A stretch of DNA of 64,000 nucleotides from Sphingomonas sp. 67-36 (GTDB lineage Bacteria; Pseudomonadota; Alphaproteobacteria; Sphingomonadales; Sphingomonadaceae). The DNA lies in assembly GCA_001897375.1 (NCBI GenBank), contig MKSU01000013.1, positions 1 through 64,000 on the forward strand, written 5' to 3'. Of this stretch, positions 22,439-37,245 are shown one piece after another. The position numbers were made by a program, and so were the translations under genes. Below the pieces are notes generated by a model that was not told the origin of the DNA, searched no databases, and worked only from the letters and a program-made list of their open reading frames with translations. Positions within the stretch are counted from its first letter, which is position 1. Each line of letters opens with the position of its first letter.

Positions 22439-22563
22439 GACGGGAATCCGATTGTACAAGAGATGTACGACAACCGCCCGGCGGTGGCAGTCGTTCCGCG
22501 ATCAGGAAGCAAAAGACGTCAACCAATAGCGAGCGCCGACAGGGCGAGCGATGTGCCCTCAAA

Positions 22564-23112
22564 TCAAGGCGAGCGAGCTGCGGCTTCCCGTCGAAGTGCC
22601 TCGAATTGATCCGGCGTCATTTTCGGCATGGCTTCGACCAGCGCGACGATCTTTGCGATCTCCTCCGGCGAGGAGATTTCGCCCCACGCCGGCATGCCGG
22701 TCATCTTAACGCCGTCATGGACCAGCGTGTAAAGCTCGGCATGGGACCATCGCGCGGAAGCACCGACCAGATAGGGCGGCGTGGGGAGCATGGCGCTCGC
22801 CCATTGCGCCCGCGCGATGCCTGGGCCGCCGTGACAGGCAATGCAGCGCCGCTCGTAAAGCCGCATTCCATCCAGCAGCGTCGAACGATCCGGCTTCAGG
22901 CGGGGAGCATCGGCACGGGCATGGCGGCGCACCGAGTTGAGCATCGTCCGATGGACCGCCCAGGCAAAGAGCTTCGAATGCGGCTGGTTGGCGCCCGTGC
23001 GAAACCCCACCCCCGACAGCAGCAGCCCGAACGCCACTGCGGCGATCAGCACGCAGATCGACAGGCCGAGAATACATCCGGCGATCATCGATCGGATATG
23101 CCGCGGGGGCAT
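22564..23112 (-). CDS. membrane-anchored monohaem cytochrome c
   Basis: A 182-residue protein with an N-terminal membrane anchor (SMIAGCILGLSICVLIAAVAFGLLL, given here only as its position, residues 8-32) and one haem-c site CIACH near residue 87. GMPAWGEI near 145 supplies the likely axial Met. It would carry electrons on the periplasmic face of the inner membrane. Its ATG lies 5 bases after the stop of the upstream cytochrome gene, so the two form an operon. The electron donor is not clear. The ThDP enzyme downstream is 125 bases away. Confidence 0.87.
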   Translation of the reverse strand: MPPRHIRSMIAGCILGLSICVLIAAVAFGLLLSGVGFRTGANQPHSKLFAWAVHRTMLNSVRRHARADAPRLKPDRSTLLDGMRLYERRCIACHGGPGIARAQWASAMLPTPPYLVGASARWSHAELYTLVHDGVKMTGMPAWGEISSPEEIAKIVALVEAMPKMTPDQFEALRREAAARSP

Positions 23113-23117
23113 GGCCG

Positions 23118-23534
23118 CTATTTCTGCCCGTGGAGATAGGCGACGATGCCCCAGATCTGCCGCTCGTCCATTTCCTCGCGCGGCATCATATTGCCCGGCA
23201 CGACCGTTTGCGGCGATTTGAGATAATATGCCAGATTTTCCGGGGTGTTGGGGAGAATGCCTGCGATCATCTGCCGGCGAGCGTAATGCGCGAGCGGCGG
23301 ACCGACCATGCCATCCGCCCCCTCTATACCGGAAATCCGGTGGCATGAGCCGCAGGCGTGCTGCGTGATGGCGATCTCCCCCAGCCGCTTGGCGGATACA
23401 TCCGGGTCCGTCGCGCGCGCGGGATGGCATGCGGCGACCGACGCGAGCAGCGCGATGAGGCACATGATTCTGGCTGCAGGTTCGCGGTCGCCGGATATCG
23501 GTACGGGTTGAAGATTCCTCTGACCTTGCTGCAT
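23118..23534 (-). CDS. small monohaem cytochrome c, probable lipoprotein
   Basis: A 138-residue protein with one haem-c motif CGSCH near residue 65 and a likely axial Met in GNMMPREEMDE. The signal region IALLASVAACHPARA contains a lipobox-like VAAC. The ATG at 23534 has GGAAGG at good spacing. An internal ATG at 23465 lacks a ribosome site but would give a more typical short signal. The Arg/Gly pattern RRQMIAGILPNTPENLAYYL closely resembles that of the cytochromes in the oxidase operon at 29.4 and 32.7 kb, pointing to a shared family. Confidence 0.85.
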   Translation of the reverse strand: MQQGQRNLQPVPISGDREPAARIMCLIALLASVAACHPARATDPDVSAKRLGEIAITQHACGSCHRISGIEGADGMVGPPLAHYARRQMIAGILPNTPENLAYYLKSPQTVVPGNMMPREEMDERQIWGIVAYLHGQK

Positions 23535-23649
23535 GGCGACCTTCCCGCCCCATTCAACGCCGCAGGTTTTGCGCGGTTTCGTCCGGGACGACGCGGGATA
23601 AAGCCGCGTTCCCGATCGTTCGACTGCAATAGACGAACGGGAGAAGTGA

Positions 23650-24557: not shown

Positions 24558-25157
24558 ATGCGCAGTTATTTCCTGGGCCTTGTTGGCATCGGTATCGCTC
24601 TTTCCTCCTGCAATCGCGCGAACGACAACGATCGCACGCAGGAGATTTCGGGGCCGGGCAATCAGGCCGGCATGTCGACCATCGGCGACAACAAGGCGGC
24701 GGAGGCGGCAAACGCGAGCTCGATCGCGGCACCGGCAGATCAGGAGTTCGCGAACAAGGCGGCGGCAAGCGACAATTTCGAGATCACCTCATCCCGTCTC
24801 GCAGACAGTAACGCGAGTTCGGCGGCGGTGAAGGATTTCGCGCGCGAGATGATCGACGCCCATACGAAATCGACAGCGGAGCTGAAGCGTATCGCGTCGG
24901 CGCTGCCCGCGCCGATAACGCCGGATCCGAGCCAGTCGGCTGATCAGCAGGGCGTCATCGACCAGTTGAGCGGCAAGAAGGGCGCGGACTTCGACCGGGC
25001 CTATGCCGCCGCGCAGGTCGATGCGCATGAAAAGACGCTCGGCGCGCTTCAGAGCTATGGCTCAGGCGACCGGAACGCGGCGTTCCACGGCTTCGTGGCG
25101 GATATCGAGCCGGTGGTGAAGAAGCATCTCGCGATGGCCCGCCATCTTCCGCATTGA
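24558..25157 (+). CDS. DUF4142-family lipoprotein
   Basis: A 199-residue envelope protein. The signal ends in the lipobox LSSC near residue 18. The mature part is a helical ferritin-like DUF4142 domain. It includes ADQEFANKAAASDNFEITSS, the central KDFAREMIDAHTKSTAELKR and the closing EPVVKKHLAMARHL, with the characteristic His residues. Members are exported proteins of unknown role, often stress-linked. I start at ATG 24558 because it gives the signal peptide at once. It converges on the electron-transfer operon, with 3 bases between the stops. Confidence 0.85.
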   Translation: MRSYFLGLVGIGIALSSCNRANDNDRTQEISGPGNQAGMSTIGDNKAAEAANASSIAAPADQEFANKAAASDNFEITSSRLADSNASSAAVKDFAREMIDAHTKSTAELKRIASALPAPITPDPSQSADQQGVIDQLSGKKGADFDRAYAAAQVDAHEKTLGALQSYGSGDRNAAFHGFVADIEPVVKKHLAMARHLPH

Positions 25158-25160
25158 GCC

Positions 25161-25955
25161 TCATCCGGCCGCTGGCACCCCGTATCGATCGAGCAGTTGC
25201 GCGATCGCGGACCGCCGGCGGGCGAGGATCGTCTCGACCTGTTGCTTGAGGCCGGGATCGTCCTTCCGCACGCCCATCGAGATGTCATAGACCATCGGCC
25301 AGCGCGCATCGTCGAGCCACGGCGTCACCGGCTCCAGCCTAAGCGGCACAGGGGATTTCCTCGCGAAATAGCCCGCCAGCGGCCCCCAGACGATCGCGAC
25401 ATCGACCCGCCGGTCACCGACCGCCCGCACGATCTCGGCCGGCGGATCGGGATGGGCATAATCGCCGTAGAGCATGAAGCCGCGCACATTGTCGGTCATC
25501 CCGCGCGCCGCCATCGCGTGCGCGGGCGGCGTGTTCATCGCATCGTCGCCGACCATCTGCACGCCGACCCTCAACTTCCTGAGGCGCGGATCATCCAGCG
25601 TCAGGCGATCGAGCGGGCGATCGGCGCGGGTGACGAATACATAAGTGGAGCGGTAATAGGGGCGCGTCGTCGCCACCATCTCCACTCCGCTGGCTACGCC
25701 GGGCCAGATATCGCATTTCTTCTCGCCCAGCGTGTTGCGGACATAGCCGCGCCGCTGCGCCCACCAGACATAGCGCACCTGCCGCCCCAGATCGTGCGCG
25801 ATCATCGCGGCGAGGCGGTTCTCGAACCCCTCGCCCGCGCGGTTCGAGAACGGCAGATTGTTGGGATCGGCACACACCGTCAGCACCGGCGGCGCGGCGC
25901 GGACCGAGCAGCCGGCGAGCGCCAGCGCGGTGACGAGGAGCGCGCACCGCCTCAC
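25161..25955 (-). CDS. XoxJ/MoxJ-like periplasmic binding protein (quinoprotein-associated), lipoprotein
   Basis: A 264-residue solute-binding-type protein of the quinoprotein-dehydrogenase-associated family. The GTG start (25955) overlaps the previous stop as GTGA. The signal ends in LALAGC, a lipobox. The mature chain opens with LTVCADPNNLPFSNRAGEGF and continues with GYVRNTLGEKKCDIWPGVAS, both family hallmarks. XoxJ is thought to help mature or activate lanthanide methanol dehydrogenases. Its position as last gene of the operon that encodes a lanthanide-type dehydrogenase fits that role. Confidence 0.9.
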   Translation of the reverse strand: MRRCALLVTALALAGCSVRAAPPVLTVCADPNNLPFSNRAGEGFENRLAAMIAHDLGRQVRYVWWAQRRGYVRNTLGEKKCDIWPGVASGVEMVATTRPYYRSTYVFVTRADRPLDRLTLDDPRLRKLRVGVQMVGDDAMNTPPAHAMAARGMTDNVRGFMLYGDYAHPDPPAEIVRAVGDRRVDVAIVWGPLAGYFARKSPVPLRLEPVTPWLDDARWPMVYDISMGVRKDDPGLKQQVETILARRRSAIAQLLDRYGVPAAG

Positions 25956-26926
25956 GGCACCGCCACCGCGCCCCACGGCTGGCCGCCGAGCTTCACCGTG
26001 CGCGCCACCCGGTTCGCGTTCAGGTCGATGATCGTCACGTCGCCGGAAAGCCCGCCGACCGCGTAGAGCCGGCTTTCGTCCGGCGATAACGCAATGCCCC
26101 AGTTGCGCTCGCCGACCTTGAAGGTGCGCACCACCTTGCGCGTCGCGGGATCGATCTCTGCGACGTGATTACCGCGCCCGAGTGCGACGAACACCCGCCG
26201 CTCGCCGCGCGTCGCCACCATCTCCACCGCCTGCACCGGATCAATCTGTGGCAGCGCCGCGACGAGATCGATCGTCGCAACGATCCGGCGCGTCGACGGA
26301 TCGAAGATCGAAATCGTGCCGCGCTGCTCCGACGATACCCACGCCTCGCGCCCGCCCTTCAGGAACAGTACGGCGCGCGGGCGGTTGCCGACCATCACGC
26401 TGTCCAGCAGCCTGCACGTCGCCGGATCGATGAAATGCGCCGTGCTGGCGGTTTCGGACGTGACGATCAGCGTGCGCCCGTCCGGGCTGATCCCCACCCC
26501 TTCCGGCTCCGCGCCGACCGGCACCTCGCACACCGCCTTGTTCGCGGCGATATCGATGATGCTGGCGGTGGCGTGATCCTCATTGGCGACAAACAGGCGC
26601 CTGCCGTCCGGGCTGACCGCGAACCGTTCCGGATCGGTGCCCGAATCGAGCGAGCGCGTCACCTTGCGCGTCGCGAGATCGATCACATCGATGCGATTGG
26701 CGTTGCCGGCGGCGACGTAGAGCGACTTGCCGTCCGGCGACACGACCATGCCGCGCGGCCGCGCGCCCGTGCGGATCGTGCCCTTGTCCTCCCCGGTCGC
26801 GCCGTCGATGACGTGGAGCAGGTTGAGCTTCTCGTCGGAAACGAACACCGTGTCGTGCGGCCCGACCGGCGCCCGACCACACGCCGCGAGCGCAAGCGTC
26901 GCGCCGAGGAGCAGTGCCTGCCTCAT
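25952..26926 (-). CDS. YVTN beta-propeller lipoprotein, PQQ-catabolism-associated
   Basis: A 324-residue beta-propeller with a lipobox (LALAAC near residue 16). It contains six or seven YVTN-type blades, each with a ViDlat...V...G..P.g...SPDG pattern, for example PRGMVVSPDGKSLYVAAGN and GISPDGRTLIVTSE. This matches the beta-propeller proteins encoded with PQQ-dependent dehydrogenases. It overlaps both neighbours by 4 bases (ATGA and GTGA). It may dock or scaffold the dehydrogenase and cytochromes in the periplasm. No catalytic residues are evident. Confidence 0.9.
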   Translation of the reverse strand: MRQALLLGATLALAACGRAPVGPHDTVFVSDEKLNLLHVIDGATGEDKGTIRTGARPRGMVVSPDGKSLYVAAGNANRIDVIDLATRKVTRSLDSGTDPERFAVSPDGRRLFVANEDHATASIIDIAANKAVCEVPVGAEPEGVGISPDGRTLIVTSETASTAHFIDPATCRLLDSVMVGNRPRAVLFLKGGREAWVSSEQRGTISIFDPSTRRIVATIDLVAALPQIDPVQAVEMVATRGERRVFVALGRGNHVAEIDPATRKVVRTFKVGERNWGIALSPDESRLYAVGGLSGDVTIIDLNANRVARTVKLGGQPWGAVAVP

Positions 26927-27498
26927 CGCGCTCCCTCGGTCGTGCTGCCGAAATCGTTGGTGGTCTTGGGTGGCGGCGACCAGCCGTTATGGTCGTCGGC
27001 CGATTTCGGCACCGGGGCGGGATGCTGACCCGGCGTCTCGCCCGTATTCGCCGCGATCGTCGCGGGGAGCGAGAGCGAGCGGACATAGGCAGCGATCTCC
27101 CAGAGCTGGTCGTCGGGCACCTTGCCGCCCCAGCTCGGCATCCCGTTCGGCCGCCCCTCGACGAGCGTCTGGTGGATCTGGGCCAGCCTGCCGCCGTAGA
27201 TCCATTCCTTGTCCATCAGGCTCGGCCCCATTCCGCCGCCGCCGGCCGAATGACAACCGTTGCAATTATACGCCTTGTAGAGCCGCATCCCCTCGTTCAC
27301 CGCGGCGGCATTGTCGTAATAGGCGTCGGCGCGGCGATCGTTCGTGACGAGGCTGGCCAGTTCGCCCGGCAGCAGCGCGCTGGCGATCACGCCGGGCCGG
27401 TCGGGCGCGGCACGCGGCTGCTCCCGCGCCTGGCGATGACAGCCACCGAGCGCCAGCAATGCGAGCGCGGCAAGCTCAATGCGGGAGCGTGAAGACAT
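26923..27498 (-). CDS. monohaem cytochrome c lipoprotein, partner of the PQQ dehydrogenase
   Basis: A 191-residue cytochrome c. ATG 27498 has a strong AGGAGG site. The signal ends in the lipobox LGGC (residue 20). The haem site is CNGCHSAGGGGMGPSLMDKE near residue 80, and the axial Met is likely in GMPSWGGKVPDDQLWEIAAY. The Pro-rich C-terminal tail after residue 160 is probably flexible. The gene starts inside the 3' end of the dehydrogenase gene (23-base overlap), so its product is the prime candidate for first electron acceptor. Confidence 0.92.
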   Translation of the reverse strand: MSSRSRIELAALALLALGGCHRQAREQPRAAPDRPGVIASALLPGELASLVTNDRRADAYYDNAAAVNEGMRLYKAYNCNGCHSAGGGGMGPSLMDKEWIYGGRLAQIHQTLVEGRPNGMPSWGGKVPDDQLWEIAAYVRSLSLPATIAANTGETPGQHPAPVPKSADDHNGWSPPPKTTNDFGSTTEGAR

Positions 27499-29383
27499 AG
27501 AGCGTCCCTCCTGCATTGGTGTATCTGGGCAGGTCGGACATGGCGTTGACCATGCCGAGCGCCGCCGATCCGTCGCGCGGATCGACCGGGCCGGAGACGA
27601 CCGCGCCGGACCAGCCGCCGACCCCGGTGAGGATCGCGACATACTGGTGCCCGTCCGGCCCGCGATAGCTGACCGGCTGGCCGATGATCCCGCTGTCCAG
27701 TTTCTGCTGCCACAGGAGCTTGCCCGTGCTGGCGGCGACCGCTTTGAACCAGCCGTCCATCGTCCCATAGAAGACGAGGTTGCCGGCGGTCGTCACAGTG
27801 CCGGACCAGACCGGGAAGCGTTCCGGTATCTCCCACGCCGGCTTGCGCAGGATCGGGTCCCACGCAGTCAGCACACCGCGATGGCCGTCGCCCGGCCCCG
27901 CCTTCATATGCACCTCCGCCCCGACATAGGGCGTGCCGGAGATGTAGTTCACCTCCAGGTTCATCCAGTCCATGCACATATTCTCGTGCGGGATATAGAG
28001 CAGGCCGGTGCCGGGGTTGAACGAGCTGGGATTCCAGTCCTTCGCGCCGCTCGCCGTGGGGCAGATGTCGCGCGTCACCTGTCCGAGCTTGCCGACCTTG
28101 GCGGGGTTGACGATCAGCGCGCCGGTCCTGAGGTCCACGCCCCGTGATGAATTGATCGGGCCGAACGGATCGGCCGACAGCACCTGCCCGCTCCGCCGGT
28201 CGATGACATAGACATAGCCGTTGCGCTCCGGCCGGACGAGGACGTGGCGGATTCTTCCGGCAAACGGCATGTCGAGCAGGATCTGCTCGTTGATCCCGTC
28301 ATAATCGTCGGTGTCGTGCGGGCTGAATTGGTAGAACCATTTCGCCTCCCCGCTCGCCGGATCGCGCGCGAAGATGCCGGCGGTCCATTTGTTGTCGCCG
28401 GGGCGTTGCTCCGAATTCCACGGGCCGGGGTTGCCGGTGCCGTGGATCACCTGATGCAGGTCCGGGTCGTAGGTGAACCAGCCCCACATGCTGCCGCCGC
28501 CGATCTTCCACGCATCGGCCGGCCAGCTTCTGACGCCAAGGTCGCGCCCGCGATCGGCGGCGTAGAATGGCTTGAATTCCGCGCCGATCCGCACGTCCGC
28601 GTCGGGGCCGGTGTTATAGGCCTTCCACAGCAATTTGCCGCTCTGCTCGTCGAGCGCCACCACCCAGCCGCGCACCCCCATCTCGCCGCCGGAATTGCCG
28701 ACATAGACGCGCCCGTCCGCCACCAGCGGCGCCATCGTCATTGTCTCGCCGCGGTTGATGTTGCCGAGCTGCACCTTCCACAACGGCTTGCCGGTGGCGG
28801 CGTCGAGCGCGATCGTCTGCCCGTCCAGGGTGTTGAAGATATATTTGCCCGCGTCATAGCTGCCGCCGCGATTGACCACATCGCAGCACGCCACTCCCTG
28901 CGCGGCGGGCGCGGGGCGCGGCATGTATTTCCATTTCATCGGCGCGCCGGGCTTCGTCAGGTCCAGCGCATAGACGATGTTGGGGAAGGCGGTGACAACA
29001 TACATCGTCCCGCCCGCGACGATCGGCGCGGCCTCCTGCCCCTTGTTGACGCCGAGCGAGAAGGTGAAGGCGGTGGCGAGATGGCGGACGTTGCCCGCGT
29101 TGATCTCGGTGAGCGTCGAATAGCGGGTGGAAGCGTAGTTCTTCGACGGCATCGTCCATTGCCCGTCGTCCGGCGGCGAGCCGCCCGGCGCGGGCCGCGC
29201 CTTGCCCATGTCGGTGGTCGGCGGCGCGAGCGCGTGGCCGATCTGCTCGCGGGTGAACACCGCCGATGCCGGGACGGGCGCAGGGAGCTTCGGCGCGGGG
29301 CCGGTATAGCCTTCCTCCGCCGGCGCTTGCCCGCAACCGGCGAGGATCGTGGCGAGCAGCAGGACGTGCGGATTCCGGGTCAT
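27476..29383 (-). CDS. PQQ-dependent alcohol dehydrogenase, lanthanide-type, lipoprotein
   Basis: A 635-residue eight-bladed quinoprotein of the methanol/ethanol dehydrogenase family. The adjacent-cysteine disulfide is in GVACCDVVNRGG near residue 155. GGEMGVRGWVVALDEQSGKL and GTGNPGPWNSEQRPGDNKW are PQQ/metal-site blocks. The catalytic Asp (about 360) sits in DDYDGINE and is followed two residues later by a second Asp (about 362, codon 28298-28300), the residue that marks lanthanide-dependent XoxF/ExaF/PedH enzymes, where calcium MxaF has Ala. The signal ends in the lipobox LAGC, unusual for a family that is normally soluble. It overlaps both neighbours. The alcohol substrate is unknown. Confidence 0.93.
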   Translation of the reverse strand: MTRNPHVLLLATILAGCGQAPAEEGYTGPAPKLPAPVPASAVFTREQIGHALAPPTTDMGKARPAPGGSPPDDGQWTMPSKNYASTRYSTLTEINAGNVRHLATAFTFSLGVNKGQEAAPIVAGGTMYVVTAFPNIVYALDLTKPGAPMKWKYMPRPAPAAQGVACCDVVNRGGSYDAGKYIFNTLDGQTIALDAATGKPLWKVQLGNINRGETMTMAPLVADGRVYVGNSGGEMGVRGWVVALDEQSGKLLWKAYNTGPDADVRIGAEFKPFYAADRGRDLGVRSWPADAWKIGGGSMWGWFTYDPDLHQVIHGTGNPGPWNSEQRPGDNKWTAGIFARDPASGEAKWFYQFSPHDTDDYDGINEQILLDMPFAGRIRHVLVRPERNGYVYVIDRRSGQVLSADPFGPINSSRGVDLRTGALIVNPAKVGKLGQVTRDICPTASGAKDWNPSSFNPGTGLLYIPHENMCMDWMNLEVNYISGTPYVGAEVHMKAGPGDGHRGVLTAWDPILRKPAWEIPERFPVWSGTVTTAGNLVFYGTMDGWFKAVAASTGKLLWQQKLDSGIIGQPVSYRGPDGHQYVAILTGVGGWSGAVVSGPVDPRDGSAALGMVNAMSDLPRYTNAGGTLYVFTLPH

Positions 29384-29718
29384 GGCTTGTCCAGAGTGTA
29401 GAGATAGTCCGCCAGCATCGCGGCCTGCGCGGGGCTGAGGCCGAGTTCGGGCATCGCCCCGCCGGGCTGGACCGACTGCGGGTGAATGAGGAAGGCGCGC
29501 AGGTTGGCGGGCGTGTTGGGTAGCCTGCCCGCGATCGTCTGACGCCGCGCGAAGCCGGCAAGCGGCGGCCCGACCAGCCCGCGCGCCGTCGCCACGCCCG
29601 GAACGACATGGCAGGTCGCGCATTGCGCGGCGATCAACGCCTTCGCCCCGGCATGGGGGTCGGTGCGGCTGCACGCCGGGAGCGCCGCCAGCAGCAGGAT
29701 AAGGCTCAGCCGAGGCAT
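29380..29718 (-). CDS. small monohaem cytochrome c lipoprotein
   Basis: A 112-residue protein: signal with lipobox LPAC (residue 16), haem site CATCHVVPGV near residue 33 and axial Met candidate in GGAMPELGLS. The middle segment RRQTIAGRLPNTPANLRAFL resembles the fused haem domain of the CoxB encoded upstream. It overlaps the dehydrogenase start by 4 bases (ATGA) and the membrane-protein gene by 13 bases. It probably shuttles electrons between dehydrogenase and oxidase. Confidence 0.9.
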   Translation of the reverse strand: MPRLSLILLLAALPACSRTDPHAGAKALIAAQCATCHVVPGVATARGLVGPPLAGFARRQTIAGRLPNTPANLRAFLIHPQSVQPGGAMPELGLSPAQAAMLADYLYTLDKP

Positions 29719-30140
29719 CGCGGCACCAGCAGGAAGGCGACGAGCGTCACCAGCGTGGTGAGCGCGAAGCCGCCGCCGAGATAGACGCCCCACAAGGCGA
29801 CGAAGCGCGTGCGGCCGTGGCCGACCTCGACCAGTTCGTCGTGGTCGCCCTCCACCTCCTCGCGCACCTCGACGAACTTGCGCCACGAGAGGAAGCCCGC
29901 GACCGCCGCCGCCAGCGCGCACAGCAACAGCACCGCGATCGCGCCGACGTGGGTCCAGCCATAGCCGGCGAGCGGCGCGTCGAGCCGGTCGATCGCCGGA
30001 AAGCACGGCCAGCTCGTCATCATCTCGCCGACGCAGAGCTGCACCAGCCACGCGACCGGACCGGTGTAGAGCAGCAGCGACGCGCCGAGGCCGCTCAGCC
30101 GATCGCGATGCGGCGCGGGATGATGGCGCTCGCCGATCAT
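29706..30140 (-). CDS. small multi-pass membrane protein of the oxidase operon
   Basis: A 144-residue protein with three predicted transmembrane helices: about 18-38 (LGASLLLYTGPVAWLVQLCV), 66-88 and 118-140. A charged cytoplasmic or periplasmic loop rich in Glu, Asp and His (EVREEVEGDHDELVEVGHGR) lies between helices 2 and 3. It sits between CoxC and the cytochrome c with overlaps at both ends, so it is probably an accessory or fourth subunit of this oxidase. No sequence family is recognised and it does not look like a classical CtaF. Confidence 0.8.
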   Translation of the reverse strand: MIGERHHPAPHRDRLSGLGASLLLYTGPVAWLVQLCVGEMMTSWPCFPAIDRLDAPLAGYGWTHVGAIAVLLLCALAAAVAGFLSWRKFVEVREEVEGDHDELVEVGHGRTRFVALWGVYLGGGFALTTLVTLVAFLLVPRCLG

Positions 30141-30748
30141 CGCGCGAACCCCAGATAGGGCGTGAGGTAATAGGTCGCGAACACGAACAGCCACACCGCG
30201 TCCACGAAATGCCAGTAGAGCACCCCGGCCGACACGACGATGCGGCGGCGCGGCGAGAAGAAGTCCAGCGCCACCCACAGGGCCAGCATCGCGAGGATGA
30301 TGAGACCCGCGACGACATGCGCCATGTGGAAGCCGGTGGTCGCGAAGTAGAGCGAGGCGTAGCTCGACGTCCCAATGCGATAGGGCTTCTCCGCCCATTC
30401 ATAGACCTGCACGCCCGCGAACACCGCGCCCATCGCGAACGCGCTGAGCAGGCCGACCAGCGCCTGTGCCCGGTTGCCGCGCTCGACGCCTTTCTCCCCT
30501 AACCAGGCGACGACGCTGGAGGCGAGCAACAGCAAGGTATTGGGCAGCGCCGGCCACATCTTCGGCGTCGGCTCCAGCAACCAGCCGGGCAGCGCGCTCG
30601 CGCCGGTATAGTAATAAGAGAACAGCAGATAGGCGAACAGCGCCGCCTCGCTGGCGATCAGCGCGCCGACGCCCCATTGGCCGACGCCGTGCCGCCCGAC
30701 CGGGCCGACCGGCAGCTTCCCGGGTCGGGCAAGGACAAGCTCAGCCAT
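30137..30748 (-). CDS. ctaE: cytochrome c oxidase subunit III-like protein
   Basis: A 203-residue heme-copper oxidase subunit III with five predicted helices. The start region GQWGVGALIASEAALFAYLL and the family signature GTSSYASLYFATTGFHMAHV, followed by VVAGLIILAML, are clear. GVLYWHFVDAVWLFVFATYY closes the protein as in all subunits III. It overlaps CoxA by 8 bases and the next gene by 4 (ATGA). Confidence 0.93.
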   Translation of the reverse strand: MAELVLARPGKLPVGPVGRHGVGQWGVGALIASEAALFAYLLFSYYYTGASALPGWLLEPTPKMWPALPNTLLLLASSVVAWLGEKGVERGNRAQALVGLLSAFAMGAVFAGVQVYEWAEKPYRIGTSSYASLYFATTGFHMAHVVAGLIILAMLALWVALDFFSPRRRIVVSAGVLYWHFVDAVWLFVFATYYLTPYLGFAR

Positions 30749-32681
30749 GCGCCGGTTCCCGTTCGAGCAATCTGCGCTGCGGCCATAGCCACATCACCAG
30801 CGCGGCGAGCACCAGCAGCGCGCCGAGCGCGATCGCCGCCCATGCCTTGAGCAGCAGCGCGAAGAACAGCACGCCGAGCGCCGCCGCGAGCAGGAACGGC
30901 GCCCAGCTATCTTCCGGCATCTCGACGATCCGGTCCGGCTCGGCATCGAGCGGGGTGGTGGTGACTGTCTCCTTGCCGTGATCGAGCATCATGCCGCGCG
31001 CGATCGAGCTGCGCCCCCGGCTCTCGTCCAGCGCCTCCTCCCAAAGAGGGTGGCGCGAGGCGATCGTCGGGATCACCGTGAAATTATAGGGCGCGGGCGG
31101 CGACGGCACCGCCCATTCCAGCGTCGGCCCGCCCCACGGATCGGCGGGGGCCTTCGCACCCGAGCGCAGGCTCCTCGCGACATTGACGAAGAACAGCAGT
31201 ACGCCGATCGCGAACACGAAGCTGCCGATGGTCGTGATCATGTTGAGCGTCGACCAGCCCATCCCCGCCGGATAGGTCCACACCCGGCGCGGCATCCCGA
31301 ACAGACCGGTCAGGTGCATCGGCAGGAAGCCGAGGTTGAAGCCCAGGAACATCGTCCAGAAGTTCCAGCGCCCGAGCCGCTCGTCCATCATCCGGCCGAA
31401 CATCTTGGGGAACCAGAAGTATGTCGCGCCGACCACCGGGAAGACGTTGATCCCGACCAGCACGTAATGGAGGTGCGCGACGACGAAATAAGTGTCGGTG
31501 AGCTGCCAGTCGACCGGCACGCTGGCGGTCATGAAGCCCGATACGCCGCCGATCACGAACAGCAGGATCATCGAGGCGAAGAACAGGAAGGCGGTGGTCA
31601 TCACCGGCCTCCCGGTCCAGATCGTCGCCAGCCACGCGAAGATCGCCACCGCGCTCGGCACGGTGATGACGATCGACGCACCGGAGAAGAAGCTCAACGA
31701 CAGCCCCGGCAGGCCGGTCGCGAACATGTGATGCACCCACACGCCGAAGCCGAGGATCATCGTCGCGACGGTGGACAGCGCGACCAGCGAATAACCCACC
31801 AGCGGCCGGCGGCAGAACACCGGCAGCCCGTCCGACGCCATGCCCATCGCGGGGAGGACGATTGCATAGACCCAGGGGTGGCCGAAGATCCAGAACAGGT
31901 GCTGCCACAGGAGCGGCTGGCCGCCGCCCGAAGTCTGGAAGAAGCTGGTGCCGAACTGCCGGTCCAGCCACAGGAGGAAGAAGGCGAGGCTGACGGCGGG
32001 CACCACGACGAGGTTGGCGACGCTGGCGGTGAGCGTGCCCCAGATCAGGATCGGCATCCGGTTGATCGACATGCCGGGCGCGCGCATCTTGAAGGCGGTG
32101 ACGATGAAATTCGCCGCGCCGACCGTGGTGGAGATGCCGAGCAGCACCATGCCCAGCGCGTAGAAATCCTGGTTCAGCCCCGGATTATATTGCCGCTCGG
32201 CATAAGGGACGTAGTTGAACCAGCCGTCGTTCGCACCATTGCCGGTGAGGAAGCCGGCGTAGAGGAACAGGGCGGCGGCGAGATACACCCAATAACTGAA
32301 CGCGTTGAGGCGCGGGAACGCCATGTCGCGCGAGCCGAGCAGCAGCGGCCACAGGTAATTGGAGAAGCCCGACAGGACCGGCGACGCATAGAGGAAGATC
32401 ATCGTCATCCCGTGCGTCGAGAAGAATTCGTTATATTGCTCCGGCGTCAGCAGGTTGAGGTCCGGCCCGGCGAGCTGGAGCCGGATCACCAGCGCCTCGA
32501 TCCCGCCCAGGGCGAGCAGGACGAACGCGGTGATGATGTAGCGGATGCCGATCTCCTTGTGATCGACAGTGGTGAACCACCCCTTCCACCCCGGCTCGGT
32601 CGCCCAGATCGCGTGGAGGCGCGCGCGCAGTTCGGGGGTGTCCTCGCCGATTTCCGGGGTGCGGAAGGCGGCGGGCGTCAT
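30741..32681 (-). CDS. ctaD: heme-copper oxidase subunit I lacking canonical D- and K-channel residues
   Basis: A 646-residue oxygen-reducing subunit of the inner membrane. Haem and copper ligands are all present: the His in STHGMTMIFLYASP, the cross-linked His/Tyr pair in FGHPWVYAIVLP, the two His in WVHHMFATG and the two in VVAHLHYVLVG. The D-channel entrance Asp (GSRDMAFPRLN) is kept. However, the Glu of the usual HPEVY is Trp (residue 270, codon 31872-31874) and the Lys of the usual PTGIK is Ala (residue 346, codon 31644-31646, in VPSAVAIFAW). The C-terminal 60 residues add two helices, as in CoxA fused to a CtaF-like part. It overlaps its neighbours at both ends. Confidence 0.95.
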   Translation of the reverse strand: MTPAAFRTPEIGEDTPELRARLHAIWATEPGWKGWFTTVDHKEIGIRYIITAFVLLALGGIEALVIRLQLAGPDLNLLTPEQYNEFFSTHGMTMIFLYASPVLSGFSNYLWPLLLGSRDMAFPRLNAFSYWVYLAAALFLYAGFLTGNGANDGWFNYVPYAERQYNPGLNQDFYALGMVLLGISTTVGAANFIVTAFKMRAPGMSINRMPILIWGTLTASVANLVVVPAVSLAFFLLWLDRQFGTSFFQTSGGGQPLLWQHLFWIFGHPWVYAIVLPAMGMASDGLPVFCRRPLVGYSLVALSTVATMILGFGVWVHHMFATGLPGLSLSFFSGASIVITVPSAVAIFAWLATIWTGRPVMTTAFLFFASMILLFVIGGVSGFMTASVPVDWQLTDTYFVVAHLHYVLVGINVFPVVGATYFWFPKMFGRMMDERLGRWNFWTMFLGFNLGFLPMHLTGLFGMPRRVWTYPAGMGWSTLNMITTIGSFVFAIGVLLFFVNVARSLRSGAKAPADPWGGPTLEWAVPSPPAPYNFTVIPTIASRHPLWEEALDESRGRSSIARGMMLDHGKETVTTTPLDAEPDRIVEMPEDSWAPFLLAAALGVLFFALLLKAWAAIALGALLVLAALVMWLWPQRRLLEREPAHG

Positions 32682-33640
32682 TGCAGCGTCTCCAGATAGG
32701 CGAGCACGTCGTTGAGCTGCTGCCCGGTGAGCTTCTGGTCCGGCATCAGCGCGCCGGGCTTGGCGGCCTGCGGCGACTGCACCCAGCCCGCGAGGCTGCC
32801 GCGGGTGTTGGGGAGCATCCCGGCTGCGATCAGACGGCGGCTCATCAGATGGGTGAGATCGGGGCCGTAGAAGGAGGAGGCGTCGGTGCCGCGCACGGCG
32901 TGACACAGGGCGCAGCGATACTGGAAATATTGCTGTCCGCGCTGCGCGGCGGCGGTGGCGGGCGGCGGCGCGGTTTGAAGCTGGGCGCGGCGCCACCGCT
33001 CGAAGGCGGCGGGCATGTCCGCCACCACCTCGAACGCCATCTTGGCGTGCTCCAGCCCGCAGAACTCGGCGCATTGCCCACGATAGCGGCCCGGTGCATC
33101 GGCCTGCATCCAGGTGAGGTTGGTCTGGCCGGGGATGGCGTCGGTCTTGCCGGAAAGCTGTGGCACCCAGAAGCTGTGGATCACGTCCGCGCCGTGCAGG
33201 CGGACCAGCACGCGCCGGCCGGTGGGGATGTGCAGTTCATTCGCGGTGAGGAAGGTGCCGTCCGGCTCGTCGCCGTTGTAGCGCACCTCCCACCACCATT
33301 GGCGCGGCGTGACGTCCAGCACGAGGGCCGGGCGGCGCGGCGGCCCGACGACGCGGCCGAGCGCGGCCATCGTCCATACCAAAGTGACGAGCAGCGGCAG
33401 CGCGCTCGCGATCAGGCCCCAGCGGATCCAGCCCAGCCCATGGCCGCCGCGCTCGACCGCCACCGCGCGCGGCTCGACGCGCGGGCCGTGGCGGCGGGTG
33501 CGCCATACGCCTAGCCCCAGCAGGCCGCCGATCACGACGCACACCGCCACCGACACCGCCAGCACGAACCATGTCAGCGGCACGATCGCCCCGGCGCGCT
33601 CGCCGGAACTGGTGAGATAGCCGAGCGGCAATCCGCTCAT
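32678..33640 (-). CDS. ctaC: cytochrome c oxidase subunit II with fused haem c domain (caa3 type)
   Basis: A 320-residue subunit II. Two transmembrane helices (about 20-45 and 72-95) precede the CuA cupredoxin domain. The dinuclear copper ligands are visible: His155 (DVIHSFWVPQ), Cys190, Cys194, His198 and Met201 (CAEFCGLEHAKM). An Ala/Pro linker (222-233) leads to a C-terminal cytochrome c domain with CALCHAVRG (243-251) and an axial Met in GALMPDQKL. The fused haem makes external cytochrome docking optional, as in caa3 oxidases. ATGA overlaps connect it to CtaG and CoxA. Confidence 0.94.
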   Translation of the reverse strand: MSGLPLGYLTSSGERAGAIVPLTWFVLAVSVAVCVVIGGLLGLGVWRTRRHGPRVEPRAVAVERGGHGLGWIRWGLIASALPLLVTLVWTMAALGRVVGPPRRPALVLDVTPRQWWWEVRYNGDEPDGTFLTANELHIPTGRRVLVRLHGADVIHSFWVPQLSGKTDAIPGQTNLTWMQADAPGRYRGQCAEFCGLEHAKMAFEVVADMPAAFERWRRAQLQTAPPPATAAAQRGQQYFQYRCALCHAVRGTDASSFYGPDLTHLMSRRLIAAGMLPNTRGSLAGWVQSPQAAKPGALMPDQKLTGQQLNDVLAYLETLQ

Positions 33641-34359
33641 GCCGCCGCCTCGTCCATCGCGCGCCACATCGCCGCGAGCGAGCGCAGCGCGACCCACAGG
33701 AACAGCAGGCATCCAGGCACCCACATCAGCACCCCGCCGAGTTGCTGGTCGGCGAGCGGCGTCAGGCCCCATGCCTCGGTGGTGGCGTAATGCGGGCGGT
33801 ACATCGGCCATGACGCGAGCGCGATCACCGCGCCGAGCAGCCCCATCTGCACCGACGCCACCACGCCCGCCGCCAGCGCCTGCGGCCCATGCTGGCGCAG
33901 CAGCACGGCCCACAGCCAGATGCCGCTGCCGAACAGAGAGAGGTGCATCAGCCAGTAGAGCGCGGCGGACCGGAACGTCGCCTCATAAGGTGCGGGCATG
34001 TGCCAGAACCACAAGGCGATCAGGAAGGCGACGCTCGCGCCCCACAGCGCCGCCGGCCGCCGCATCGCCGGCCGGTCCGGCAAGGCGATCGCGATCAGCG
34101 GCGCGGCGAGCAGCAGCAGGATCATATGCTGCGCGATCCGTGCGGCGAACAGCGACACCGACAGCGCGCAGAGCGGCGAGACGAAAGCGACGGCGGCGAT
34201 CGCCCAGCCGGTCGCGGCCGATGCGACGCGTCGGGTGCGGACGATATGGAGCGCGCCGATCGCAAGGAGCGCGGTGATCAATATCGGATCGAGATTGAAC
34301 CGCGCGGCAAGTTCGCCGGGCAGCGGCGGCGTGCCGCAATATGCCGTCGCCTGCGCCAT
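33637..34359 (-). CDS. ctaG: caa3-type oxidase assembly protein CtaG
   Basis: A 240-residue membrane protein with six to seven helices and no soluble domain. This is the caa3_CtaG type, distinct from the Cox11-like CtaG. Conserved His residues lie in RIAQHMILLLLAAPL, FWHMPAPYEA and YWLMHLSLFGSGIWLW. It is proposed to assist copper insertion into CoxA. It is one base away from the DUF336 gene and overlaps CoxB by 4 bases. Confidence 0.9.
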   Translation of the reverse strand: MAQATAYCGTPPLPGELAARFNLDPILITALLAIGALHIVRTRRVASAATGWAIAAVAFVSPLCALSVSLFAARIAQHMILLLLAAPLIAIALPDRPAMRRPAALWGASVAFLIALWFWHMPAPYEATFRSAALYWLMHLSLFGSGIWLWAVLLRQHGPQALAAGVVASVQMGLLGAVIALASWPMYRPHYATTEAWGLTPLADQQLGGVLMWVPGCLLFLWVALRSLAAMWRAMDEAAA

Positions 34360-34360
34360 C

Positions 34361-34813
34361 TCACGCCGGAACGCGATCGGCGTGGCGCGACCTTTCCTCC
34401 TCGAACGCGGCGAGCGCGGCCTCGACCACCGACTGATCCTGATCGACCGTGCCGCCGCTCGATCCGATCGCGCCGATCACCGCGCCGTCCACCTTCACCG
34501 GCGCACCGCCGCCGAAGATCACGATACGGTCATGGTTGGTGTTCTGGATGCCGAACAGCGGCTTGCCCGGCGCTGCCATGCGCGCGAGGTCCTCGGTCGG
34601 CATGTCGAAGGCACGGGCGGTGAACGCCTTGTGGATCGCGATGTCGATCGAGCCGAGCCACGCCCCGTCCATCCGCGCGAAGGCGAGCAGGTTGCCGCCG
34701 GCATCGACCACCGCGATGTTCGAGGGCACCTCGATCTGCGCCGCCCTGGCCTCCGCCGCCATGAGCAGCCGGCGCGCGTCGCCGAGCGAAAGCGTTTCGA
34801 TGGTCATCACCAT
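34361..34813 (-). CDS. GlcG/HbpS-like DUF336 protein
   Basis: A 150-residue single-domain protein of the DUF336 family (GlcG, HbpS, and the corrinoid-enzyme-associated relatives). Hallmarks are NIAVVDAGGNLLAFARMDGA, the PTEDLARMA segment and GGGAPVKVDGAVIGAIGSSGGT. Some members bind haem or cobalamin-like ligands. No export signal is seen, so it should be cytoplasmic. ATG 34813 has GAGGAG 7 bases upstream. It is the first gene of the eleven-gene electron-transfer operon, which may indicate a haem-handling or small-molecule role there. Confidence 0.88.
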   Translation of the reverse strand: MVMTIETLSLGDARRLLMAAEARAAQIEVPSNIAVVDAGGNLLAFARMDGAWLGSIDIAIHKAFTARAFDMPTEDLARMAAPGKPLFGIQNTNHDRIVIFGGGAPVKVDGAVIGAIGSSGGTVDQDQSVVEAALAAFEEERSRHADRVPA

Positions 34814-34971
34814 GCGGCCTCTCCTCGTTGCGCCATCAACGCCCCGTCGCGCGCCGCCGATCCGGGAAACCCCCATCCTTCTAACGTATGTTAGCGAAAG
34901 GACTTCGGCCGGAACGAAAGCCGCGCCACCCGCTTTTCGTGACGATCCGGCAACGAAACAGGGGAAGCCAT
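34814..34971. promoter_or_regulatory. divergent promoter region of electron-transfer operon and TonB receptor
   Basis: The 158 bases between the two start codons must drive the eleven-gene minus-strand operon and the plus-strand receptor gene. I see no convincing -35/-10 pair or palindrome. The shared region suggests common control, for example by lanthanide or alcohol availability. Confidence 0.4.
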
Positions 34972-37245
34972 TTGGCGCGTTCGATCCGTATGACGGTCGC
35001 GCTGATGCTCGGCAGCGCCCTTCCCTCGCTCGCGCAGGCGAAAGATGTCGTCGTCACCGCGCAACTGCCGGGGCCGGTGGTCGACGCGGACCGCCTGCCG
35101 GTCGCGACGCAGGCGCTGAACGCCGGCACGATCGCCCGCGATGGTGCGCCGGACTTGCTCCGCGCCACGCTCAGCGACCTGCCCGGCGTCAGCTTCGCCG
35201 AGGCGCAGGACAATCCCTATCAGCCGGACCTGTTCTATCGCGGCTATGAGGCCAGCCCGCTCGGTGGCGATGCGCAGGGGCTGGCGGTCTATGTCGACGG
35301 CGCACGGTTCAACCAGCCGTTCGGCGATACGGTCAATTGGGACGCGATCCCCGACATCGCGGTGAAGCGGCTGACGCTGGAAAGCGCCAATCCCGCGTTC
35401 GGCCTGAACGCGCTGGGCGGCGCGATCGCGGTGAACATGAAATCGGGCCGCGATATGACGGGCGTGTCCGGCTGGCTCTCCGCCGGGCGCTTCGGCAAGC
35501 GCGGCGCTTCGGCGGAGGTCGGCGCGCGGGCGGGTCGCTGGTCCTTCTACCTCGCGGGACAGGTGGAGCATGACGACGGCTGGCGCGATTTCTCGCCCTC
35601 CATCGTGCACCAGCTTTACGGCGACATCGGGCTGGACGGCGACTGGGGCACGCTCGACCTGAAGCTGATCGGCGCGGAGACGAACCTCACCGGCAACGGC
35701 GCCTCCCCGGTCGAACTGCTCGCCGCGCGGCGGCAGGCGGTGTTCACCTGGCCCGACAACAGCCGTAATCTTTACGGCCGCGCGCAGTTATCGGCGGCGC
35801 TGGCGCTGGGCGGCGGGCTGACCTTGCGGCCGCAGGCTTATGTCGCCGGCTATCGCCAGCGCACCGCGAACGGCGACCTTTCCGACGCGGAGCCGTGCGC
35901 TGGCAATGGCAGCCTGCTCTGCCTGGAGGGCGAGGACGACGCGCCGCTGACCGGCGGTACAGGGGCGCAATTCCCATCCTTCGCGGGCGGCGACACCTAT
36001 GCCCAGCTCAACCGCACGCGCACCCGTACCACCAGCTTCGGCGCGTCGGTGCAGCTCGACGGCAGGGCCGGTAGCCACAGCTTCGCGGTCGGTGCGAGTT
36101 GGGACGGCAGCAACTCCCGCTTCGACGCGCAATCGCTGATCGGCGTGCTGACCGACGATCGCGGCTTCGGCGATCCCCAAGGCGCGATCGACATGCCGGA
36201 CGGGTCGATCCGCCCGGTCGACGTGAAGAGCCGCCGCGACGATATCGGCATCTACGCCGGCGACGTGATCGCACTGACCCCACGCTTCGACCTGTCGCTG
36301 TCGGCACGCTACAACGACAGCCGCGTGCGCCTGTCGGACCAGCTCGGCACGGCACTCGACGGTCGCCACCGCTTCGCGCGGTTCAACACCGCGATCGGCG
36401 TGGTGTGGCGGACGAGCGACGGCGTGGCGCTCTACGCCGGCTATGCCGAATCCAATCGCGCACCGACGCCGGCCGAACTCTCCTGCGCGGACCCGGAAGC
36501 GCCCTGCTCACTCGCCGCCTTCTTCGTCGGCGATCCGCCGCTGAAGCAGGTCGTGGCGCGAACGTGGGAGGCAGGGCTACGCGGACGGAGCAAGGTGGGC
36601 GGCATGACGCTGAGCTGGCGGCTCGGCGGGTGGCGGGCGACCAATAGCGACGACATCATCTTCGCCGCCAGCGGCACCCGTGGTCGCGCTTATTTCCGCA
36701 ATGTCGGGCGCACCCGCCGCCAGGGGATCGAGGCGTCCGCCAGCGCGGAGCGCGGCGCGTGGACGATGAGCGCCAGCTACACGCTGACCGACGCGACCTA
36801 TCGCACCGGCTTCGTCGTCGCCTCGCCCGACAATCCCGCCGCCGACGAGGATGGCACGATCACCGTGCGCCCCGGCGACCGCCTGCCCGGCATCCCGCGC
36901 CATCTCGGCAAGCTGGTGGTGACGCGGCGCTTCGGCGAGGTCACGCAGCTTTCCGCCACCGGGCAATGCGCGAGCGGACGCTGGCTGCTCGGCGACGAGG
37001 CGAACCTGACGCGGCCGACCGGCGGCTATTGCATCGCCAATCTCTCCGGTTCGGTGAAGGTGGTGAAGGGCGTCGCCCTGTTCGCGGAGGTGCGCAACCT
37101 GTTCGACCGCCACTACGCGACATTCGGCACCTTCTCCGAGGTCTCGGAGGTCAATCTCGCCGAAGCGCCAGGCGCAAGCGACCCGCGCTCGCTCAGCCCC
37201 GCCGCCCCGCGCACCTGGTGGATCGGCGCGCGCTTTCGCTTCTGA
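34972..37245 (+). CDS. TonB-dependent outer-membrane receptor
   Basis: A 757-residue receptor. The TTG start has AGGGGA upstream and gives a signal peptide ending PSLAQAKD. The TonB-box-like VVVTAQLP follows directly. The plug domain contains LPGVSFAEAQDNPYQPDLFY and LTLESANPAFGLNALGGAIA. The barrel closes with PRTWWIGARFRF, ending in Phe. The plug resembles receptors for metal complexes more than those for sugars, though this is a weak impression. Divergence from the lanthanide-type dehydrogenase operon makes it a candidate for uptake of a lanthanide chelate or of the alcohol substrate. Confidence 0.92.
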   Translation: MARSIRMTVALMLGSALPSLAQAKDVVVTAQLPGPVVDADRLPVATQALNAGTIARDGAPDLLRATLSDLPGVSFAEAQDNPYQPDLFYRGYEASPLGGDAQGLAVYVDGARFNQPFGDTVNWDAIPDIAVKRLTLESANPAFGLNALGGAIAVNMKSGRDMTGVSGWLSAGRFGKRGASAEVGARAGRWSFYLAGQVEHDDGWRDFSPSIVHQLYGDIGLDGDWGTLDLKLIGAETNLTGNGASPVELLAARRQAVFTWPDNSRNLYGRAQLSAALALGGGLTLRPQAYVAGYRQRTANGDLSDAEPCAGNGSLLCLEGEDDAPLTGGTGAQFPSFAGGDTYAQLNRTRTRTTSFGASVQLDGRAGSHSFAVGASWDGSNSRFDAQSLIGVLTDDRGFGDPQGAIDMPDGSIRPVDVKSRRDDIGIYAGDVIALTPRFDLSLSARYNDSRVRLSDQLGTALDGRHRFARFNTAIGVVWRTSDGVALYAGYAESNRAPTPAELSCADPEAPCSLAAFFVGDPPLKQVVARTWEAGLRGRSKVGGMTLSWRLGGWRATNSDDIIFAASGTRGRAYFRNVGRTRRQGIEASASAERGAWTMSASYTLTDATYRTGFVVASPDNPAADEDGTITVRPGDRLPGIPRHLGKLVVTRRFGEVTQLSATGQCASGRWLLGDEANLTRPTGGYCIANLSGSVKVVKGVALFAEVRNLFDRHYATFGTFSEVSEVNLAEAPGASDPRSLSPAAPRTWWIGARFRF

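Follow-up and report, generated by a model that had tools for sequence, protein, structure and literature searches.

The 64,000-nucleotide stretch analysed here (positions 1 to 64,000 of contig MKSU01000013.1 of Sphingomonas sp. 67-36; hereafter the window) carries eleven genes, all on the minus strand from 34813 down to 25161, in which an XoxF3-type quinoprotein alcohol (probably methanol) dehydrogenase module and a caa3-like, type a-II haem-copper oxidase are likely to be encoded within one operon. An earlier note made from the sequence alone (the original prediction) had listed the same genes in the same order, and all were recovered from the open reading frames and by family searches: DUF336, Caa3_CtaG, coxB with haem c, coxA, coxC, a small membrane protein, cyc1, the pyrroloquinoline quinone (PQQ) dehydrogenase, cyc2, a YVTN propeller and XoxJ. 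The genes, together with two codons of coxA that are discussed below, are as follows.

34361..34813, minus strand: HbpS-like / DUF336 haem-binding protein, 150 amino acids (aa), first gene (Pfam PF03928, 149.3 bits)
33637..34359, minus strand: Caa3_CtaG copper-insertion factor, 240 aa (Pfam PF09678, 105.3 bits)
32678..33640, minus strand: CoxB, 320 aa, CuA domain and C-terminal haem c, CALCH (TIGR02866, 161.7 bits, cut-off 147.7; PF00116, PF00034)
30741..32681, minus strand: CoxA, 646 aa, COX1 with a C-terminal two-helix extension, COX4-like (TIGR02891, CtaD_CoxA, 676.3 bits, cut-off 670.75)
31872..31874, minus strand: codon of Trp270 of CoxA, at the place of the D-channel glutamate, Glu278 of P. 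denitrificans (alignments)
31644..31646, minus strand: codon of Ala346 of CoxA, at the place of the K-channel lysine, Lys354 (alignments)
30137..30748, minus strand: CoxC, 203 aa (PF00510, 90.4 bits)
29706..30140, minus strand: small membrane protein, 144 aa (no match in family searches)
29380..29718, minus strand: cyc1, cytochrome c, CATCH, 112 aa (PF00034, 31.3 bits)
27476..29383, minus strand: PQQ dehydrogenase, putatively XoxF3-type, 635 aa, lipobox LAGC (TIGR03075, PQQ_enz_alc_DH, 600.7 bits, above cut-off)
26923..27498, minus strand: cyc2, cytochrome c, CNGCH, 191 aa, XoxG-like by position, lipobox LGGC (PF13442, 59.2 bits)
25952..26926, minus strand: YVTN beta-propeller of the PQQ-catabolism type, 324 aa, lipobox LAAC (PQQ_ABC_repeats, 336.4 bits, above cut-off)
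25161..25955, minus strand: XoxJ-like periplasmic binding protein, 264 aa, GTG start, lipobox LAGC (TIGR03871, ABC_peri_MoxJ_2, 289.3 bits, above cut-off)

Adjacent genes overlap at nine of the ten junctions, by 4 to 23 bases, and the tenth (DUF336-ctaG) is a 1-base gap, in agreement with the earlier claim that nearly every junction overlaps. The overlaps measure 4 bases at ctaG-coxB and at coxB-coxA, 8 at coxA-coxC, 4 between coxC and the small protein, 13 between the latter and cyc1, 4 at cyc1-dehydrogenase, 23 at dehydrogenase-cyc2, and 4 each at cyc2-YVTN and YVTN-XoxJ. Both the 8-base coxA-coxC and the 23-base dehydrogenase-cyc2 overlaps were kept in all seven related loci compared, for which start codons were extrapolated from homology; other junctions were looser in the same loci, with coxB-coxA extending to +44 bases and cyc1-dehydrogenase to +22. 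The DUF336-ctaG spacing was +10 to +125 bases in the three related loci measured. The operon is bounded on its 3' side by a convergent DUF4142 gene, which ends 3 bases away at 25157, and on its 5' side by a divergent TonB receptor gene (34888-37245). Scans for sigma-70-like promoters (0 sites versus 1.0 in shuffled sequences) and for terminator-like sites (3 versus 3.4) were at or below the shuffled background. The gene layout supports the proposal of one expression unit, and the operon is presumably co-transcribed.

The operon appears to hold the complete set of parts for the predicted path from alcohol to oxygen. A primary alcohol would be oxidised in the periplasm by the PQQ- and lanthanide-dependent dehydrogenase, and its electrons would pass to the lipid-anchored cyc2 (in the role of XoxG), perhaps onward via cyc1, next to CoxB with its haem c and CuA, and finally through the haem and haem-CuB centres of CoxA to O2. 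CtaG would load copper and XoxJ would help the dehydrogenase to mature, while the YVTN propeller, the DUF336 protein and the small membrane protein may be accessories. PQQ and lanthanide would both be taken up, the divergent TonB receptor being a candidate importer for one of them. We infer from the sequence this electron path, with O2 as acceptor, as well as the proton coupling considered below and the roles of CtaG and XoxJ. The top PDB match of CoxB was the Thermus caa3 subunit 2YEV_B, and that of the XoxJ-like protein was XoxJ itself (6ONP). The signal of cyc1 is lipoprotein-like, with the sequence LPAC and not a strict lipobox. A single operon that combines the enzyme, its cytochromes and a probable oxidase would provide a tractable unit for studying the substrate of XoxF3 and the fate of its electrons.

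The nearest solved structure to the dehydrogenase was that of the Methylacidiphilum enzyme 4MAE (614.3 bits), an XoxF2 according to the available text of PMC11845868, and its two best PDB matches were both XoxF enzymes. In a 46-row tree, 38 rows including the window formed one clade (support 94/89) outside XoxF1, XoxF2, XoxF5 and MxaF; in a smaller tree the clade comprised 14 rows with a support of 100/100. The dehydrogenases of the cox-linked acidobacterial loci L089 and L094 fell inside this clade. Because the clade stands apart from XoxF1, XoxF2 and XoxF5, and because its gene neighbours are those of the published acidobacterial XoxF3 clusters, the enzyme is best read as XoxF3-type, an assignment that is strong but indirect, the references in the trees being XoxF1, XoxF2, XoxF5 and MxaF. 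A match of 63% was found in Methylocella tundrae, a congener of strains reported to carry XoxF3 (PMC6778391, in the portion available).

The linkage of the two halves was surveyed from the dehydrogenase side, with the oxidase ignored. Matches were found in 8 of 385 genomes of the class (E 1e-160), 18 of 397 of the family (E 1e-150) and 8 of 398 of the phylum (E 1e-170), with at most three candidates scored per genome and some stretches ending at contig ends. The window's own genome was counted in each of the three sets, and the overlapping lists gave 33 distinct matches, all of whose neighbourhoods were read (the window, L051, L052, 27 stretches and three more). Four matches were placed outside the XoxF3-type count, namely L167, which groups with XoxF5, and L178-L180, which are 46-48% identical and not on the tree; no COX1 match was present in the stretches examined of any of these four. 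Among the remaining 29 XoxF3-type loci, 27 carried a COX1 gene within the examined stretch. The concern that the two halves might be adjacent in this strain only is thereby removed, and the pairing is not strain-specific.

The complete eleven-gene order was the same in the Sphingomonadaceae loci L067/L151, L153 and L154, and in L152 as far as the contig end, with the DUF336 gene in the same place in all of these. A ten-gene order that lacks DUF336 was observed in L155, L156 and L051, while L158 kept the order save for a flipped DUF336 gene and an undetected cyc1. Other members of the family (e.g., L052 and L159-L164) contained the same kinds of genes in a different order. In an oxidase-first scan of named genomes, the pairing was also present, among the best 80 loci, in Mesorhizobium, Microvirga, Bradyrhizobium, Rhodanobacter, Terriglobia, 'Candidatus Sulfotelmatobacter' and other Sphingomonas; plasmid records with the pairing came from Methylocella tundrae, Methylocystis iwaonis and Mesorhizobium. 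The small membrane protein is evidently a regular partner of oxidases that, like that of the window, carry Trp at the D-channel glutamate site (Trp-type oxidases), with homologues in all 23 such loci searched (19 by open reading frame search and 4 by tblastn).

Several points weigh against the reading of the operon as an XoxF3-oxidase module. The XoxF3 name was reached by exclusion of XoxF1, XoxF2 and XoxF5 and by the shared cox neighbourhood, on trees without labelled XoxF3 or XoxF4. The match of cyc2 to MoxG (TIGR03872) reached only 30.8 bits, far below the cut-off of 147.8, so that the XoxG designation is one by position. The XoxF3 of Methylocella silvestris was barely expressed and not regulated by lanthanum (PMC9291206, as far as available), which speaks against taking a major role for granted. 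The idea that lipidation generally tethers the dehydrogenase was rejected, since beyond the window's own enzyme a lipobox was scored in 5 of 35 dehydrogenases linked to an oxidase; for the cyc2 cytochromes of such loci the figure was 24 of 34. Two XoxF3-type loci lacked COX1, namely L157 (genome G140) and L171 (G287, a second XoxF3-type gene). L157 contains a dehydrogenase that is 73% identical to that of the window, with cyc2, XoxJ and DUF336 and no nearby oxidase match, and its genome has pqqC. Conversely, an 83% identical oxidase (L050 of genome G123) adjoins an FMN-dependent dehydrogenase, thiamine pyrophosphate (TPP) and GMC enzymes, and no PQQ dehydrogenase match was present in the 19 kb examined around it.

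Further Trp-type oxidases also occur beside other partners. On plasmids of Paraburkholderia, Burkholderia and Caballeronia, oxidase relatives adjoin genes for a GMC oxidoreductase and gluconate 2-dehydrogenase subunit 3, and on the Paraburkholderia acidisoli plasmid SDR and GH15 genes lie near the relative; Trp was present and Lys missing in all four of these plasmids. Relatives at 65% in Nitrosospira (L099) and 67% in Methylobacter (L068) were accompanied by a recognisable cytochrome c, with no dehydrogenase among the four and three flanking proteins scanned, respectively. Ten of 27 Trp-type loci lacked an XoxF3-type gene in the examined stretch, some of these stretches being short. The designation of the oxidase as the dehydrogenase's 'own' was therefore too strong, in view of the G123 oxidase, the Burkholderiales relatives beside GMC and gluconate-dehydrogenase-type genes, and the oxidase-less G140. 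The oxidase looks like a module that would accept electrons from several kinds of periplasmic dehydrogenase, of which XoxF3 is the commonest in this sample.

These observations on the FMN, TPP, GMC and gluconate 2-dehydrogenase neighbours, the 10 loci and the G140 cluster, together with four other COX1-family genes in the host genome, favour the strongest alternative, in which the oxidase serves a general high-affinity or stress function and moves together with many periplasmic dehydrogenases, and XoxF3 is one of its donors but normally employs the cytochrome c pool and the main aa3 oxidase. The linkage of COX1 in 27 of 29 loci that were found by way of the dehydrogenase, and the overlap of the genes, argue against it; we regard this alternative as a serious contender, albeit the less probable explanation.

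With respect to its metal, the window dehydrogenase carries E, N, D and D at the positions of Glu172, Asn256, Asp299 and Asp301 of 4MAE, as do all 13 related cox-linked dehydrogenases aligned, while the two MxaF proteins in the alignment have Ala at the Asp301 position. The vicinal Cys-Cys was aligned in all 19 rows. These residues are in accord with the original description of the enzyme as lanthanide-type, and use of a lanthanide, with methanol as the probable substrate, is suggested. A somewhat doubtful alternative is that the enzyme uses calcium, or an alcohol other than methanol (ethanol, a polyol or a polymer end group). The Asp at the Asp301 position in 14 of the 14 cox-linked enzymes, as well as the XoxF identity of the two best PDB matches, argue against this alternative. 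In Methylosinus trichosporium, XoxF3 and XoxJ proteins rise with cerium (PMC12482762, available portion), and XoxF3 has been described as abundant in soil and weathered rock, without biochemistry (PMC10875860, likewise).

An unusual property of the module concerns its oxidase and lies beyond the original prediction, as does the lack of PQQ synthesis described below: two residues normally required for proton transfer, one in each proton channel, are missing from CoxA. Trp270 occupies the place which we take to be that of Glu286 in R. sphaeroides, and Ala346 that of Lys362. The D-channel Glu and the K-channel Lys are essential in canonical A-type enzymes, as established by mutant studies. The COX1 alignment drew on the window and 118 further loci, with a single sequence for each, and contained 115 rows; L042 (alignment too short) and L157, L167 and L171 (no COX1) gave no row, and the repeats L054 (= L113), L151 (= L067) and L173 (= L107) were left out. 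The rows were chosen mostly by similarity to the window, so that the proportions are not a census. The D-channel site was occupied by Glu in 86 rows, Asp in 2 and Trp in 27, and the K-channel site by Lys in 29 rows and by another residue in 86. None of the 27 Trp rows had the K-channel Lys (21 Ala, 3 Ser, 1 Thr, 1 Gly and 1 Gln).

All 27 Trp-type oxidases retained the six haem/CuB His ligands and the active-site Tyr, as well as Ser, Asp and Asn at the Ser291, Asp124 and Asn131 sites, and 25 of them also had Asn at the Asn113 site. The D-channel would thus keep its mouth and end at the Trp. All but one of the Trp rows (26 of 27) formed a single clade with full FastTree support, which spans alpha-, beta- and gammaproteobacteria. 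The remaining one, a COX1 from an actinobacterial metagenome (L076, 6308-8197) with Trp at the Glu site and Gln at the Lys site, fell outside this clade, in a weakly supported part of the tree. Two Micromonosporaceae COX1 proteins (L078 and L079) carry Asp in place of the D-channel Glu and Gln in place of the K-channel Lys. A buried carboxylate or Lys specific to the Trp clade that might stand in for the lost residues was sought, and no Glu or Lys was found among the columns passing the screen. In these columns the clade residue was Asp once (Asp284, where Lys-type enzymes mostly have Glu) and Arg once (Arg47, common in Glu/Gln-type enzymes too), the others being Ser, Thr, Asn, Tyr and Trp. 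The structure model of CoxA (mean predicted local distance difference test score, pLDDT, of 73.1, and below 50 around the haem pocket) was used for the C-terminal helices only, of which two (594-611 and 614-632) were confident.

In A2 oxidases, a Tyr (YS motif) stands in place of the D-channel Glu. In CoxA, by comparison, the place of Glu278 is taken by Trp270, and FG or FA precedes HPW, with no YS, in 27 of 27 Trp-type sequences. The A1 K-channel residues, as defined in the available part of PMC3084760, are Lys354, Thr351, Ser291 and Tyr280; the corresponding residues of CoxA are Ala, Ser, Ser and Tyr. CoxA exceeded the cut-off for A-family COX1, and ba3 chains matched it at only ~32-41 bits. 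By the definitions of PMC3084760, CoxA is neither A1 nor A2, and the B-type is excluded by its sequence. The same source mentions four sequences without B-type channel residues, such that channel-poor oxidases have been noted before. A description of a Trp-type oxidase was not found in the open literature, within the partial coverage of the sources available.

The loss of the proton-channel residues, the relatives in Nitrosospira and Methylobacter and the occurrence of sNOR in ammonia oxidisers (PMC6967387, available portion) would be compatible with CoxA being a nitric oxide reductase (sNOR-like) and the module not an oxygen chain. This is very unlikely, and an sNOR/NorSY identity was rejected: sNOR belongs to the B-family (PMC6967387 and PMC11388526, as far as available) and CoxA to the A-family by both the COX1 cut-off and the poor ba3 matches, and the active-site Tyr kept in all Trp-type enzymes is a mark of O2 reducers (available text of PMC3475470). 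Still less credible is a degenerate, inactive copy, to which the absence of both essential channel residues might point, given the ligands kept in 27 of 27, the clade of 26 over three proteobacterial classes, the open frames and the conserved partners.

Since the D-channel Glu and K-channel Lys are gone while the ligands and Tyr are kept, CoxA is probably an O2 reductase whose proton pumping is altered and may be diminished. More tentatively, the Trp-type oxidases might represent A-family O2 reductases that function without either canonical proton-uptake route. They would pump few protons or none, or would draw the protons for the chemical reaction through a different route, even one from the periplasmic side. 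If so, the module would act as an electron sink in which alcohols oxidised in the periplasm, with scavenged PQQ and lanthanide, are paid for in oxygen, with no need to work against the proton-motive force. If the oxidase turns over without the Glu and the Lys, it would also constitute a natural test of which residues are needed for catalysis and which for pumping.

The absence of the K-channel Lys extends to all of the XoxF3-linked COX1 rows (36 of 36, comprising 17 Trp-type and 19 Glu/Gln-type), and none of the 29 Lys-type rows had an XoxF3-type gene in the examined stretch. Relaxed proton coupling could thus be general in XoxF3 respiration. Mapped on the dehydrogenase tree, the oxidase type required five changes (4-5 in bootstraps, with at least two forced by well-supported branches), which implies that the two oxidase types, both without the Lys, have probably replaced each other beside the same dehydrogenase clade. 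The types were still clustered on the tree, shuffled labels needing 12 changes.

The supposition that the pairing is unusual for XoxF loci in general is not supported; the pairing follows the published patterns of XoxF3 and of cytochrome c oxidase (COX) operon type a-II. In the available text of PMC10875860 (BMC Biol 2024), XoxF3 clusters with CoxI-III, CtaG, CytC, XoxG, XoxJ, YncE and a TonB receptor are described from Acidobacteria, Gemmatimonadetes and Verrucomicrobia; for the presence of cox and ctaG in xoxF3 operons, that paper refers to an earlier mini-review. In contrast to these clusters, the oxidase half comes first in the window, DUF336 leads, and the operon contains no NRAMP gene. 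The oxidases also differ, that of the window being Trp-type and those of the acidobacterial relatives L089 and L094 having Glu and Gln. Cox and CtaG are likewise named in a gene-cluster figure legend of PMC11845868.

Type a-II operons are characterised by a COX1-COX4 fusion of 630-670 aa, a short COX3 and often a PQQ dehydrogenase (PMC4013037, PLoS One 2014, available portion), and Caa3_CtaG often accompanies operons of subtype a (PMC6431628 / PMC4013037). The window fits this type, with a CoxA of 646 aa, two predicted C-terminal helices and a PQQ dehydrogenase in the operon. Type a-II has been filed as A1 oxidases, subtype a (PMC6431628, in part), yet the window oxidase departs from the A1 channel signature; in the main text of PMC4013037, to the extent available, the terms 'K-channel' and 'proton' do not occur. 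XoxF5 and MxaF systems share with the window a quinoprotein, a cytochrome c and XoxJ/MxaJ, but differ in that no match to the window oxidase genes was found in one XoxF5-like locus (L167) and three unplaced loci (L178-L180). Like the window oxidase, Thermus caa3 (2YEV) has a CuA-haem c subunit II, which aligns nearly end to end, and its subunit I matched at 430.6 bits. Its D-channel Glu and K-channel Lys are presumably in place, where the window oxidase has Trp and Ala. The module is therefore of an already known kind, and its oxidase variant was not found described in the available portions of this literature.

The host genome, whose assembly is 99.99% complete, gave no pqqC match and no pqqE above cut-off, the latter being represented by three weak matches (best 51.8 versus 381 bits) of a sort also present in all 14 control genomes. 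Among the Sphingomonadaceae genomes with the dehydrogenase, pqqC was missing in 16 of 18 (14 of 16 at a completeness of at least 90%), the exceptions being G140 and G562; outside the family it was present in 6 of 9 carriers. In the absence of recognisable pqqC and pqqE in the host, and of pqqC in most carriers of the family, PQQ is probably taken up from outside, and the sphingomonad version of the module seems to rely mostly on outside PQQ. If most sphingomonad carriers cannot make PQQ, alcohol oxidation would depend on neighbours and be a community trait. In Mesorhizobium sp. INR15, each of two different plasmids (L150 and L184) bears a single run of genes in which pqqABCDE lie directly upstream of those for the dehydrogenase, a cytochrome and a Trp-type oxidase; the protein accessions of the pqq genes and of the dehydrogenase are the same on both.

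The candidate importer upstream of the operon is the following.

34888..37245, plus strand: divergent TonB-dependent receptor, candidate lanthanide or PQQ importer (Pfam TonB barrel, 150.2 bits; real start maybe ~34990)

Its top PDB matches were YncD/PqqU (6V81 and 9C4O, 45.9 and 42.7 bits), and it scored 72.4 bits on the PqqU profile NF041535, for which at least 1200 bits are called for. One match each was found in 8 of 17 genomes (E 1e-60), and in five of these eight a xoxF locus lies next to it; one such neighbour is the XoxF5-like locus of G140, where no oxidase match was present. The receptor thus appears to be tied to XoxF and not to the oxidase. Import of PQQ is a weakened reading, in that both pqqC-positive genomes of the family, G140 and G562, also carry the receptor, and a role in lanthanide import is no less probable. 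The most PqqU-like receptor of the genome is encoded elsewhere on this contig, beyond the window (G000:C13:127200-129068), and scored 132.1 bits over nearly the whole profile (cut-off 1200).

An imperfect palindrome, CTAACATACGTTAG, is located at 34881-34894, 81 bases upstream of the DUF336 start. When a conserved operator was sought in 10 upstream regions (window included), a similar sequence, TAACCTACGTTA, was listed in L067 only. Just past the operon, at 20651-23553 on the minus strand, are genes for a TPP-dependent enzyme (PRK08273, 990.5 bits) and a cytochrome c. TPP-requiring enzymes near a Trp-type oxidase were also observed in L050, L147, L149, L181 and L182, which hints at a wider shared pathway.

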